From Candidatus Microsaccharimonas sossegonensis (GTDB lineage: Bacteria > Patescibacteriota > Saccharimonadia > Saccharimonadales > Saccharimonadaceae), in NCBI GenBank assembly GCA_004100325.1, contig SCKX01000001.1:417453-481452 (forward strand): DNA of 64,000 nucleotides, written 5' to 3'. Under the pieces are notes generated by a model. It did no database searches and had not been told where the DNA came from. It was given only the letters and a program-made list of their open reading frames with translations. A program made the position numbers and the translations under genes. Below, one piece after another: positions 501 to 52,770 of this stretch (within the stretch, counting starts at the first letter, position 1; each line of letters begins with the position of its first letter).

Positions 501-803
501 ATGTTAGACGTATTTATTACATCTCGGGTGCGACGAAAAATTGTGGTGGTGTACGCCAAGTATCCTGATTTTCGAACTCACGTCCGTGGACTTGCCAAGC
601 TTATTAAAGAAGATCCGGGAAACATTCAGCGCGAACTTAAGCGCCTCGAAAAAGTAGGTTTTCTGACTAGCGAAAAACAAGGAAACACGAAGATTTACGC
701 AACTAACAAGCAGTTTCCAATCTTTAAAGAACTGCAAAGTATTGTTATTAAGTCTCAGCAGCAAGCCACTCGACCAAAGCGCACCGTTCCTAATCAGTCG
801 TAA
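501..803 (+). CDS. winged-helix (ArsR/MarR-like) transcriptional regulator
   Basis: HTH-like 'HVRGLAKLIKEDPGNIQRELKRLEKVGFLTSEKQGNTKIYATNK'. Confidence 0.6.
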   Translation: MLDVFITSRVRRKIVVVYAKYPDFRTHVRGLAKLIKEDPGNIQRELKRLEKVGFLTSEKQGNTKIYATNKQFPIFKELQSIVIKSQQQATRPKRTVPNQS

Positions 804-2653
804 TGGTAGCCGCAATGTCGTTATTTGAAAAAATTTTAAAAGCCAGAGGAATAACGCCCGAAAAACGGGCTGTTTTTTTATCACCGGATTATGAAAAAAA
901 GCACGACCCATTTCTTTTGCCTGATATGCAGGTCGCAGTCGATCGACTGGTGGTGGCACATGACAAGCAAGAAAAAATCACTATTTACGGCGACTATGAT
1001 ATCGATGGACTGACAGCTACGACGGTGCTGATTGATGCTCTTCGAAGCTTTGGATTTGAACACGTCAAGTCGTTTATCCCAAATCGATTCGTAGAAGGCT
1101 ATGGACTAACGATTGATGCCGTCGAGAAAATTGCAGCCACCGGTGCTGACCTTATCATCACGGTCGACTGTGGCAGTCTGAGCCATAAAGAAATCGCGCG
1201 CGCCAATGAACTGGGTGTCGATGTTATCGTCACCGATCATCACAACGTTGCCGACACGCCGCCGCCAGCGGTTGCGACGATTAATCCAAAGCGCCTGCTC
1301 CACGACTTTCCCGAAATGTACGAAAAATTTGTTTTGAAGTCGAAGTCTGCTGGCACTGCAAGTCCTCTGCGAGCCCCGGATAATTGTGAAGTGTCCTCCT
1401 TGCGCGTCGAGGACTGTCTGAGCGAAGCGAGTTCCGCAGACGCCAAAGAAGGCACGCCAGAATTATCACGGCGGCGAACAGCCGGACTTGCAGGGGCAGC
1501 AGCTTCGTCTTCAAAACTCTACCCATTCCTCGATATTCCAGGGGTAGGGGTCGCGTTTAAATTGGTGCAAGCGCTACAAACGGTATTGCCTGGACTGCCT
1601 ATTGGTCAGGAAAAGTGGCTTTTGGATCTTGTCGCGTTAGGGACAGTCTGTGACGTTGTGACATTGATCGACGAAAATCGCATGCATGTCTTTTGGGGAC
1701 TAAAAGTCTTGGCGCAGACCAGGCGACCAGGGCTTAAAGCACTGATGGCGGTAGCGAGCGTTCGCCCAAAGGCTGTGAGCGCACGAAGTCTGGGTTTTGG
1801 ACTGGGGCCGCGCATGAATGCGTCTGGACGTCTAGAAACGGCGCAGTATTCGCTTGATCTTTTAACAGCAACAGACGGTTTGCGCGCGCTAGAGATTGCC
1901 AACCAACTTGATGCCATGAATAAAGCTCGCCGCTCCGAACAAGACGAAATCTTAAAAGCCGCTATCATCCAGGCAGAGGAATTTGCCGATCTGCCGGTAC
2001 TAGTCGTCAGTGCGCCAGGCTGGAATCATGGCATCGTCGGCATTGTGGCCGCGAAACTGCTTGAAAGATACAAAAAACCCACCTTTGTCCTCGAAGAAAT
2101 GGGCGAAGCAGCCAAAGGCTCTGCAAGAAGTTATGGTGACTTTAGCGCTGCCGACGCAATTCGAGCGTCGGACGATATTATTACAAAGGGTGGCGGACAT
2201 ACATTTGCTGCTGGCGTGACGTTACCAACCAAAAATATTCCCGCTTTTCGAAAGCGCGTCAATGATTTTTACAGGTCACAAAAACTGATGAATCAGCCGC
2301 TATTATTACTGCCAAAAGAGGATAGCGAAGCTGGCTTGCACGAACTAGACGAGGCATTAGTTGATGCCATGAAACAACTTGAGCCATTCGGCAACGGCAA
2401 TCCGCAACCTATCCTGAAATCAACCAACGTCGTTGTCGTGAATCAGCGAAAAATGGGTACAGAATCGCAGCACGTAAAGCTGACGCTTGAAATGCAGGGT
2501 CACAAAATTGATACGATCGCCTTTAACGCGCCGGCACATTTCTTTGTCGAGCCGGGTGAAACCGTCACGGTGTGGTATACGGTCGATGTGAATGAATGGA
2601 ATGGGCGACGCAGTGTTGAGGGGCAACTCTTGCACCTTGAAACGAACGACTAA
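803..2653 (+). CDS. recJ: single-stranded-DNA-specific exonuclease RecJ (DHH family) with a ~60-residue in-frame insertion
   Basis: DHH motifs 'YGDYDIDGLTATT', 'VTDHHN', 'LGFGLGPRMNASGRL', 'GGGHTFAAG'. Confidence 0.93.
   Translation: MVAAMSLFEKILKARGITPEKRAVFLSPDYEKKHDPFLLPDMQVAVDRLVVAHDKQEKITIYGDYDIDGLTATTVLIDALRSFGFEHVKSFIPNRFVEGYGLTIDAVEKIAATGADLIITVDCGSLSHKEIARANELGVDVIVTDHHNVADTPPPAVATINPKRLLHDFPEMYEKFVLKSKSAGTASPLRAPDNCEVSSLRVEDCLSEASSADAKEGTPELSRRRTAGLAGAAASSSKLYPFLDIPGVGVAFKLVQALQTVLPGLPIGQEKWLLDLVALGTVCDVVTLIDENRMHVFWGLKVLAQTRRPGLKALMAVASVRPKAVSARSLGFGLGPRMNASGRLETAQYSLDLLTATDGLRALEIANQLDAMNKARRSEQDEILKAAIIQAEEFADLPVLVVSAPGWNHGIVGIVAAKLLERYKKPTFVLEEMGEAAKGSARSYGDFSAADAIRASDDIITKGGGHTFAAGVTLPTKNIPAFRKRVNDFYRSQKLMNQPLLLLPKEDSEAGLHELDEALVDAMKQLEPFGNGNPQPILKSTNVVVVNQRKMGTESQHVKLTLEMQGHKIDTIAFNAPAHFFVEPGETVTVWYTVDVNEWNGRRSVEGQLLHLETND
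1332..1516. repeat. 185-bp quasi-palindromic insertion within recJ
   Basis: Left arm ttttgaagtcgaagtctgctggcactgcaagtcc versus reverse complement of right arm ttttgaagacgaagctgctgcccctgcaagtcc; inner arms share gataatt and gtg(t)cc(t)cctt..gcgtc. Confidence 0.85.
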
Positions 2654-8862: not shown

Positions 8863-9066
8863 AAGACGTTTGAGTGGATATCAGCCACGAGTCTTCGGAA
8901 GAAAACCTGCAAGGTGAGTAGAACCGAACGCGCACGCGGCGACACAGCGAACAACTAAGCGCTGAAAGAAATATCACCTCTTTGAGGTTGAAGAATCACT
9001 TCTTTTGGAAGTCAGATGGTAACGTCCTCACGGACTCTGACATTCAGAAGAGGTGATTTTTGTTTT
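8863..9066 (+). promoter_or_regulatory. ileS T-box leader with very short Stem I and intrinsic terminator
   Basis: Stem I AAGAC..GTGG-ATATCAG-CCAC..GTCTT with ATC; S-turn GTG-AGTAGAA-CCG//CGG-CGA-CAC; antiterminator GTCAGA-[TGGTAAC]-GTCC-TCAC-GGAC-TCTGAC; terminator arm aagaggtgatttttgtttt; followed by ileS. Confidence 0.87.
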
Positions 9067-18926: not shown

Positions 18927-19816
18927 CACAGAAAAAAGGTCAAGCAAGAGGATTAGGGCGCGGGTTTGAGTCGTTAATCCCGACTGATCTATTAGACGAG
19001 TCATTTGATACGACGAAATACATTGATGAACGGGTTAGTGAACTAAAAAATGTGCAGCTTTCCAAGGTTACTACTGATCCAGATCAGCCGCGCCGAACTT
19101 TTGACCTTGAAGCCTTGAACGAACTGGCGGAATCTATCCGCGAACATGGGGTGCTACAACCTATCATTGTCACCAAAAAGGGAAGCGGTTACCAAATTGT
19201 TGCTGGTGAACGACGCTTTCGAGCCTCGCAAATTGCAGGGCTTGAAACAATACCGGCACTTGTAAGGTCAATGAGCGATCAGAACAAATTGGAAGTTTCT
19301 TTGATTGAAAATTTGCAGCGTCGCGACCTAAACACGATTGAAACCGCGACCGCACTGCAAAAACTTCGTGATCAGTTCAATCTGAGTAATGAAGAGATCG
19401 GAAAGCGCGTCAACAAATCACAAAGCGCCGTGCAGAACACGATGCGCCTGTTGAAACTGCCCAAAAACGTCCGTGAATTAATCGCTGAAGGCACATTAAC
19501 AGAGGGACAAGCACGTCCACTTATTTCTTGGGACGAAGCATTTATTAACGCAGTCGTACCACGTATCATCGCCGAGGAGTGGAGTGCCCGTAAAGTTGAG
19601 CAATATGTTGTCAATGCCCGGAATGGCAAAAAGCAAACAGAACCACAAACTGTCACACAAACTGAATCTCGGCATGAACAAAAAATTGCCACCCTTCGCA
19701 GTCGCCTGAAGACCGACGTCAACATTCGCGTCAACAACAAAGGTGCCGGCACCATCGTTATCAAATTTAGCGATGAAAAAGACCTCGATCGTCTGCAAAA
19801 ACTTCTCGGCGAATAA
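18923..19816 (+). CDS. parB: chromosome partitioning protein ParB
   Basis: 'PDQPRRTFD', 'ESIREHGVLQPIIV', 'VAGERRFRAS', 'SLIENLQRRDLNTIETA'. Confidence 0.97.
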   Translation: MTQKKGQARGLGRGFESLIPTDLLDESFDTTKYIDERVSELKNVQLSKVTTDPDQPRRTFDLEALNELAESIREHGVLQPIIVTKKGSGYQIVAGERRFRASQIAGLETIPALVRSMSDQNKLEVSLIENLQRRDLNTIETATALQKLRDQFNLSNEEIGKRVNKSQSAVQNTMRLLKLPKNVRELIAEGTLTEGQARPLISWDEAFINAVVPRIIAEEWSARKVEQYVVNARNGKKQTEPQTVTQTESRHEQKIATLRSRLKTDVNIRVNNKGAGTIVIKFSDEKDLDRLQKLLGE

Positions 19817-19820
19817 GAGC

Positions 19821-19962
19821 CAAAGAACTCCAGGATGACACGGTCTCAGAACACTCTTTTAAAAAAGATCTCCACTGGAGATCTTTTTTAGCGTTGGGCT
19901 GAAAAAACTCCTATGGAAGTTTTTTCACACGTTCTTCGACCGTGTCATCCTGAATTTCTTTG
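19821..19962. terminator. nested bidirectional terminator/quasi-palindrome between convergent parB and lepB
   Basis: Outer perfect 15-nt arms CAGGATGACACGGTC (19831-19845)/GACCGTGTCATCCTG (19938-19952); inner hairpins AAAAAAGATCTCC..GGAGATCTTTTTT and GAAAAAACT..AGTTTTTTC. Confidence 0.85.
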
Positions 19963-19966
19963 TTGC

Positions 19967-20572
19967 TTAAGTCGGGAAAGTCCGAATCTTATTGAACGGA
20001 AAAATTCGTACTTCAGCCGGTCCAACCACATCATAAAGCGGAATGGTTCCTAGTCCGTTGCGGGAATCATATGAATAGTTGCCCTGACGGTTATCACCCG
20101 AAACAAAAATCTCGCCAGCCGGAACAATCTCGTCAATTGCACCGCTGGTAGGAGAACGAGGCTCACCGCGATTGGCGTCATCCGGATTAAAACCATTTGG
20201 GTACTGAGTATTATAGACGGTGTAGCGCCCATCCTTTAGCTGAACGCGTTCACCAGGAAGGCCAATGACGCGCTTGACGATATATTCATCTTCGGTGCCT
20301 TGGATAAAGCGAGGATTCTTAAAGACAATAATTTGTCCGCGCTTTGGTATGTAGGTTTTGTTTTGCAGTTGTGCCCACGTCACTGGCAGACGGTCAACGA
20401 TTAAGCGGTCACCAGTATATAGCGTCGATTCCATGCTTGGACCAACAACATTAAAGCTGCGAAAGACAAACGTATTGATCAAAATCGTGCCTATAATGAC
20501 GCACACAATAAAAATGACAATCCCTATAATGTCTTTTGCGAACGGATGACGAGTGAAATAAGAAGCTTCCAT
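19967..20572 (-). CDS. lepB: signal peptidase I
   Basis: 'GPSMESTLYTGDRLIVDRL', 'YIVKRVIGLPGERV', 'VSGDNRQGNYSYDSR'. Confidence 0.96.
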   Translation of the reverse strand: MEASYFTRHPFAKDIIGIVIFIVCVIIGTILINTFVFRSFNVVGPSMESTLYTGDRLIVDRLPVTWAQLQNKTYIPKRGQIIVFKNPRFIQGTEDEYIVKRVIGLPGERVQLKDGRYTVYNTQYPNGFNPDDANRGEPRSPTSGAIDEIVPAGEIFVSGDNRQGNYSYDSRNGLGTIPLYDVVGPAEVRIFPFNKIRTFPT

Positions 20573-33186: not shown

Positions 33187-33642
33187 ATGAAAAAACATTA
33201 TCAAATTACTGCCGAAGGAAAGAAAGAACTCGAAACAGAGTTAGACACTTTAAAAGCGCGTCGTGGCGACGTGGCAGATAAAATTGCCGAAGCTCGTGAT
33301 TTTGGTGACCTTAGCGAAAACGCTGAATATGACGCTGCTCGTGAAGAGCAGGGACTGCTAGAAACCCGAATCGCTGAAATCGAAGACATTATCAATAACG
33401 CCGACATTATTAAGAGTGGCGCAAAGGGACTGATCGGTCTGGGAAGCAAAGTCGCTTTAAAGACTGGTAACAAAATTGTCACCTACACTATCGTTGGTCC
33501 GGTTGAAGCCAACCCACTCGAGGGTAAAATCAGCAACGAATCACCAATTGGTTTGGCGCTTTTTGGACGAAAAGTGGGCGATGACGCCGAAATCACGACA
33601 CCAAAAGGTACCGTGAAGTATAAGATCGCTGAAATTAGCTAG
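33187..33642 (+). CDS. greA: transcription elongation factor GreA
   Basis: 'ITAEGKKELETELDTLKARR', 'DFGDLSENAEYDAAREEQ', 'GKISNESPIGLALFGRKVGD'. Confidence 0.95.
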   Translation: MKKHYQITAEGKKELETELDTLKARRGDVADKIAEARDFGDLSENAEYDAAREEQGLLETRIAEIEDIINNADIIKSGAKGLIGLGSKVALKTGNKIVTYTIVGPVEANPLEGKISNESPIGLALFGRKVGDDAEITTPKGTVKYKIAEIS

Positions 33643-33647
33643 AACAC

Positions 33648-33713
33648 ATATCGTTTTGAGCTTCTCTTGAGTCAGCTCGAAAACACGATATACCCCATGT
33701 CGTGTTTTCTTGT
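33648..33713 (+). promoter_or_regulatory. candidate three-arm alternative-hairpin element between greA and lysS
   Basis: arm1 ATATCGTTTTGAGCT, arm2 AGCTCGAAAACACGATAT, arm3 TCGTGTTTTC; arm2 can pair with either arm1 or arm3. Confidence 0.5.
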
Positions 33714-33843
33714 ATTCTGCGTAACTCGACTCCGTCTCAGACATACTCGAATAGGCATGAAAACACTCCATGGGTTATTCGGTTTTCTCACAGCCTCATT
33801 CGTAGCTAAACGAGAAGTGTTCTATGCTATAATCGAACCTATT

Positions 33844-38794: not shown

Positions 38795-38934
38795 CTGAGG
38801 TTTGTAAGAACGAACAAGACCTTCCTGAGGAAACATCTGCAGCCCGAGTCTATCCCGGTACTGAAACAGAGAGAGACTCGGAGCGAAGCCGTTTCAGAGG
38901 GAAGGTCTTGTTCGTTCTTACGGCACTTCCTCAG
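38795..38934. repeat. 140-bp intergenic quasi-palindrome
   Basis: 22-nt perfect arms GTAAGAACGAACAAGACCTTCC (38804-38825) / GGAAGGTCTTGTTCGTTCTTAC (38900-38921), plus flanking ctgagg/cctcag and inner cgagtct/agactcg. Confidence 0.92.
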
Positions 38935-48864: not shown

Positions 48865-48874
48865 GCCGGCAATC

Positions 48875-49095
48875 ATATCATTCCGTGCAAGCTATGAGCA
48901 ATCAGCTGTGTGTGCTGACTGATCTGTGAGGCACCCAAATAACATAACGGGCAGCTTTATTGCTATCCGAGTATGTCTGAAACGTAGTTGAGTTACGCAG
49001 GATACAAAAAACTGGCAGTTATGTTATATTGCGGTGCCGAGTTGATCAGTCAGCACACACAGCTGATTGCTTGTACTGCCTTGTGTGATATGTGA
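48875..49095. repeat. ~220-bp intergenic quasi-palindrome
   Basis: 28-nt perfect arms AGCAATCAGCTGTGTGTGCTGACTGATC (48897-48924) / GATCAGTCAGCACACACAGCTGATTGCT (49044-49071); further inner pairing aataacataac../..gttatgttatatt. Confidence 0.93.
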
Positions 49096-52505: not shown

Positions 52506-52770
52506 TAGCATTTCGGTGCTGATAACGAATACAACAATTTGGCAAAATAACCTAACCCGCACTTGGCAATGATCTGGGATATAGCTATAACAACAGGGCG
52601 GTATGGTTAAAAAACGCATAAACAATACTGATCCCGTCGTTCAGGTTCGTTTATGCGTCATGGTTGGAAACTTCCATGGGACCTGTAAAAAGGTCTGCTT
52701 AGCGGCGGGTTTTGTGTCCCCAAACGCCAAGCATTTCCCAAGCATTTCTATGTAAGCATGAGGAGGCTAT
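52506..52770 (+). other. long structured 5' leader or ncRNA candidate
   Basis: TACAAT at 52494-52499; several local hairpins (agcatttcggtgct; acgcataaac/gtttatgcgt; gacct-gtaaa-aggtc); ends with AGGAGG SD. Confidence 0.5.

Follow-up and report, generated by a model that had tools for sequence, protein, structure and literature searches.

A palindromic hairpin element with a conserved tip inside recJ of Candidatus Microsaccharimonas sossegonensis: probably tolerated and mobile

The long palindrome within the recJ coding sequence of Candidatus Microsaccharimonas sossegonensis raises the question of what this element is and how it persists inside a gene. The window, that is the whole stretch of 64,000 nucleotides analysed here, carries recJ at positions 803..2653 of the plus strand as an open reading frame of 616 amino acids, recognised by the Pfam domains DHH, DHHA1 and RecJ_OB of its product and by RecJ chains of the PDB. 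The hairpin was delimited to 1331..1517 on the plus strand (187 bases, about 62 in-frame codons) with 68 base pairs, and its outer arms, GTTTTGAAGTCGAAG... and ...CTTCGTCTTCAAAAC, make the pairing nearly end to end. The folding energy of positions 1320-1530 was -102.8 kcal/mol compared to -65.5 +/- 4.2 kcal/mol for 200 dinucleotide shuffles (z -8.84), none of which folded as well, and the 616-codon frame stays open across the whole hairpin. The in-frame quasi-palindromic element that the sequence-only reading had placed at 1332-1516 is thus real, its peptide and arm sequences were correct, and its coordinates were right to within a few bases.

The position of the insert in the protein was analysed by comparison with structures and relatives. 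Since the solved RecJ chains bridge the flanking segments with about 5 residues compared to about 75 in the window RecJ, the insert is by this alignment placed in a connecting loop. Three relatives whose RecJ is 86-87% identical (G015, G006 and G014) have a loop of only 22 residues at this site. An AlphaFold model, computed along with 16 orthologues, gave pLDDT below 50 for residues 171-240 at a moderate whole-model mean pLDDT of 66, and the encoded peptide looks like a disordered linker in this prediction. Both the model and the solved chains are in line with a surface loop.

A search with the entire insert found no second copy in its own genome. Its centre, in contrast, matches other genomes of the genus and family, mostly at the tips of long hairpins with unrelated arms. 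The common part is a conserved and covarying tip of 58 nt with the motif CGAGGA(C)TGTCTGA-stem-GAGTTCCGCAG and with conserved internal loops. The covariance model R1 was built on this tip and used for the genome searches; it matches the recJ element at 1395..1452, sense to recJ on the plus strand, with 75.2 bits and an E value of 1e-25. Over the ten tip pairs of 127 matches, 96.2% of the cells were paired and the covariation score was 0.66; shuffles scored 0.15 and slid partners no more than 0.09. The alignment was fitted to the R1 model, which itself favours covariation. An alignment of 17 tips made with MAFFT revealed five covarying pairs. No Rfam family matched the tip region or the related loci, and no description was found of the motif, or of palindromes in Saccharibacteria or Patescibacteria, in literature whose coverage excluded most subscription journals. 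The hairpin family is apparently undescribed.

The R1 search of the source genome returned three copies, all inside the window. The second is a minus-strand hairpin at 33641..33823 between greA and lysS (60.3 bits; tip 33704-33762), and the third lies on the plus strand at 48874..49092, between a murein hydrolase-like gene and an S41-like peptidase gene (56.4 bits; tip 48955-49013), the gene names being assigned by eye in both cases. The stem has 81 bp in the third copy compared to 68 bp in recJ. The greA-lysS copy has orthologous copies in G014 and G015; in G006 about 1.4 kb separates the two matching parts of this site, so that it is not a clean empty site. No clean target-site duplication was found. 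Other structures were also observed in the window: a large hairpin at 38804-38921, unmatched by R1, whose outer arms GTAAGAACGAACAAGACCTTCC pair perfectly over 22 bp and whose GA-rich tip GACTCGGAGCGAAGCCG is a different one; a long hairpin at 19814-19969 with a nested AAAAAAGATCTCCACTGGAGATCTTTTTT stem; another long hairpin at 8965-9065; and a LOOT RNA (RF03000, 64.6 bits) at 52549-52696, 3.5 kb from the third copy.

The tip is widely dispersed. At an E value of 0.1, 9 of 17 own-genus genomes carry it, eight with strong matches. In the family the count is 51 of 295 genomes, spread over 16 of 61 genera, each carrier genome having 1-11 copies, and other orders and classes of the phylum include some carriers as well. 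An exact-pattern scan returned at least 119 DNA stretches, including Nitrospira, Gallionella, Thauera, Lachnospiraceae, Barnesiella, Coriobacteria, Uhrbacteria and Nomurabacteria; one viral contig carries the pattern, and Rickettsia was not among the matches listed. A 38-nt tip query of limited sensitivity gave no match in plasmids, phages or E. coli, an absence that is unusual for an active mobile element within the sensitivity of that query.

The arms behave differently from the tip. They are unrelated between most copies of a genome, unique to each copy within the own genus, and yet complementary within each copy, with a mean stem of 56 bp within 80 nt on either side of the tip (53 elements). 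Because most copies in a genome have unrelated arms, recent copying is visible in some genomes only, as recent copies with common arms in some genomes of one genus. Copies stand alone as single hairpins or form head-to-head pairs. Family tips not more than 600 bp apart showed the (-)(+) order in 20 of 20 cases, and such tip pairs form double-hairpin elements in some genera. On contig C3 of G612, all ten copies lie on one strand of 1.24 Mb; most have unrelated arms with near-perfect pairing. In Gallionella-like and other bacteria (L135, L166, L184, L201 and L227), inverted copy pairs with terminator-like hairpins bracket single accessory genes of about 1 kb in a cassette-like manner.

Flanks were available for 117 family copies; long open frames enclose 15 or 16 of these, and the remainder are mostly intergenic. 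The doubtful sixteenth, near def in G012, is probably not coding. The recJ gene holds in-frame copies in seven species of five genera (G000, G005, G011, G126, G138, G149 and G171), the recJ insert of G185 also carries the tip motif, and the LK and LYPF motifs flank all family recJ inserts. Six of the seven have the tip antisense to recJ; the window copy has it in the sense direction. The RecJ of G651, from another class, contains two copies whose tips are nearly identical. They occupy separate loops, both distinct from the insert loop of the window RecJ. The insertion is not strain-specific, since the insert loop of the window RecJ has such a hairpin in at least seven species of five genera, and a RecJ of another class has two. 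Other in-frame hosts are an ABC-F protein, with the tip in the second ABC domain at the same site in two genera, an RNase HII-UPF0102 (rnhB) fusion, with the tip in the linker in two genera, and ileS, mnmA, dusB and a pseudouridine synthase gene. All of these host proteins act on nucleic acids or the ribosome, in numbers too small for a firm claim.

Palindromes of other kinds were observed at the same places. Both loops used in G651 hold short GGCAAGACC-type palindromes in recJ of G712 (L369), and unrelated palindromes thus seem to use the same RecJ loops. In recJ of G031 and G033 (L311 and L313), and also at L008, hairpins of different sequence (VSA.ESRD..RES) without an R1 match in recJ occupy the loop of the window insert and are apparently a second palindromic family; a peptide similar to VSA.ESRD..RES adjoins the ABC-F insert.

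The history of the recJ site was analysed on a tree of 40 RecJ sequences. The ten full inserts counted, which include the G031 and G033 hairpins without an R1 match, need nine changes, at least six of them across well-supported branches, in a sample whose pairing of carriers with near non-carriers inflates the count. They clustered no more than shuffled labels did. When the own genus is taken by itself, two changes are required, for G000 and the G011-G005 pair. The tree would fit recurrent insertion as well as recurrent loss, including one origin with many losses, and does not separate them.

The pairing is kept while the sequence changes. A consensus hairpin common to the seven recJ inserts has 69 pairs, with double changes in 55 and with 88.6% of the cells paired; any separate hairpins aligned together would show the same, so this is not a proof of change in place. 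The orthologous G014-G015 copy and the sister pair G011-G005 provide cleaner tests. The greA-lysS copy differs between G014 and G015 by 9 compensatory and 9 one-sided pairing-keeping changes, all of them transitions, and 18 pairs are broken in one or the other. Over 158 elements, G-U pairs make up 8.1% of the arm pairs on the tip strand compared to 5.4% on the other strand (p 2e-9), and in the recJ inserts the tip strand, usually antisense, has 49 G-U pairs compared to 9 A-C mismatches (p 9e-8), both p values being weakened by kinship among the copies. The tip strand also folds 8.8 kcal/mol better than the other strand on average over the 158 elements. From the excess of G-U pairs over A-C mismatches on the tip strand it follows that the folding of one strand, as RNA or single-stranded DNA, has been maintained. 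A conserved peptide with a palindrome that is not conserved, the pattern that would have spoken against a palindromic element, was not found, since the palindrome persists and the peptide encoded by the arms has drifted.

These properties were compared with known palindromic elements. The Rickettsia palindromic elements (RPEs) occur in frame in protein genes and between genes, with proteins that apparently tolerate them (PMC6649704, PMC3733652, PMC5656822), and they are reported to lose repeat identity over time (PMC6649704). The parallel drawn with them in the sequence-only reading holds in part. The present element is likewise dispersed, mostly intergenic, absent from close relatives and sometimes in frame within surface loops of conserved genes that are otherwise intact (recJ, ABC-F, RNase HII-UPF0102, ileS, mnmA, dusB and pseudouridine synthase); as measured against RPE descriptions, it differs in that the conserved part is the 58-nt tip with free arms, and that pairing is kept by wobble and compensatory changes in place of decay. 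REPs are 20-40 bp long with stems of 5-13 bp and an unpaired GTAG or CGTC tag, and they occur in many phyla, often head-to-head, and some are located within genes for replication, repair and tRNA pseudouridine synthases (PMC3733652). The likeness to REPs and REPINs lies in chromosomal palindromes that are often head-to-head, found in many phyla and sometimes intragenic, but the present hairpins measure about 120-220 nt with a structured tip and have no tag. No GTAG or CGTC tag was found at the ends of the third window copy, nor by eye at the true ends of the greA-lysS copy, and the CGTC of the recJ copy falls within a paired arm. REPtrons, in which a RAYT mobilises the REPs, have a tyrosine transposase with the repeats on its flanks; here no Y1_Tnp was found in 14 own-genus genomes, and ten Y1 loci were free of tips. 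MITEs (ERIC, NEMIS, Nezha and others) are non-coding inverted-repeat elements of 70-300 bp (PMC3733652), and they are similarly dispersed between genes; here, in contrast, the centre is conserved and not the ends, and there are neither terminal inverted repeats common to the copies nor a matching transposase. Nematomorpha mitochondria have long coding-sequence hairpins that come and go and keep pairing (PMC6649704), with perfect arms, whereas here all copies have a structured tip and G-U pairs are tolerated in the arms. The element behaves like RPEs and like intragenic REPs, and it fails the REP tests of tag, stem length and transposase.

Several other explanations were weighed against these data. 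A functional structured RNA, transcribed at each copy from the tip strand and acting in trans or in cis, and antisense in most recJ copies, is unlikely on balance. It would account for the tip-strand excess of G-U pairs over A-C mismatches, which extends to recJ with its antisense tip strand, for the covariation and internal loops of the tip, and for the transition-only compensations in the orthologous greA-lysS copy. The orientation relative to neighbouring genes is mixed, however, and the window recJ copy is sense where other recJ copies are antisense; there is no sigma-70-like promoter or terminator within 1200-1700, no Rfam family, and most relatives have no copies. More doubtful still is a giant relative of REPs moved in trans by a tyrosine transposase (Y1, RAYT or TIRYT-like). 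Head-to-head pairs, intragenic copies in repair and RNA-modification genes and spread over many phyla are all reported for REPs (PMC3733652), and outside the own genus Y1 genes were found in 8 of 12 carriers compared to 2 of 8 non-carriers in a small chosen sample, but Y1_Tnp is absent from all 14 own-genus genomes examined, eight of them carriers, none of the ten Y1 loci has a tip, the unpaired tag is lacking, and the stems are far longer than 5-13 bp.

Palindromes may also persist without function or mobility if template switching during replication keeps the arms complementary, as proposed for Nematomorpha mitochondria; PMC6649704 considers template switching or conversion as a cause. This would suit arms that are unrelated between copies and complementary within each, but it leaves unexplained the tip conserved across phyla, the strand asymmetry of wobble pairs and the mix of G-U and compensated pairs. 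The conserved tip and the strand asymmetry argue against template switching as the whole story, and as a full explanation it is very improbable. Least credible, to the point of being nearly negligible, is a feature of the RecJ protein itself, a disordered linker under protein-level selection with an incidental palindrome. The same loop is indeed lengthened in many RecJ orthologues, some without a hairpin, but outside the stretch encoded by the tip the insert peptides are highly diverse although the pairing persists, and the same tip is mostly intergenic.

The explanation that we favour, with somewhat better than even confidence, is that recJ contains a single member of a dispersed family of non-autonomous palindromic elements, recognised by their tip and tolerated in recJ. 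The evidence for an element family is the tip at the ends of long hairpins with unrelated arms in the genus, the family, other classes and other phyla. Such an element would be tolerated and is probably mobile. We infer that a cellular or mobile-element factor would recognise the tip of a folded single strand, either single-stranded DNA at the replication fork or RNA, whereby the element spreads or is kept; the duplex would be a required handle of free sequence and the folded tip the recognition site. Three features may let the element survive in recJ: a length divisible by three, the lack of an in-frame stop, and a site in a flexible loop between the DHH core and the YPF block that accommodates a probably disordered linker. 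Ribosomes would read through it like any other linker, and for this reason RecJ with the insert has probably kept its activity. The patchy pattern would follow if the element was gained and lost repeatedly at the loop and sometimes flipped. A wider version of this explanation is tentative: a hairpin class crossing phyla, with a GA-rich tip on a free duplex and one folded strand kept, may repeatedly colonise RecJ loops, mostly antisense, and recJ may be a preferred home of coding palindromes.

Specific modes of movement were also considered and rejected. The clustering of open reading frames around 151 tips in other phyla revealed no transposase linked to the tips; only spurious frames over the repeat and common genes lie near them, and the cargo between inverted tips differs each time. 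A transposon of 2-3 kb bounded by paired hairpins (G238, G221 and G207) was dismissed as the intervening genes are ordinary. The near-identical tips with different arms in the G651 RecJ prompted the idea of arms as an inverted target duplication, which was ruled out since neither arm matches the empty site in relatives.

A precise motif is now available to search for, and the element would explain small spurious open reading frames that cover the tip in other phyla and yield 'CLSEASSA'-type peptides. Coding palindromes have been known mainly from Rickettsia and a few REP-rich genomes, and the present family is an independent kind in the small genomes of Patescibacteria; in several genera it is tied to a single nuclease loop, and it occurs also in RecJ of another class. 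Two questions thereby become testable: which factor recognises palindromic elements lacking a transposase, and why such elements are so often found in repair genes, as is reported for REPs (PMC3733652).
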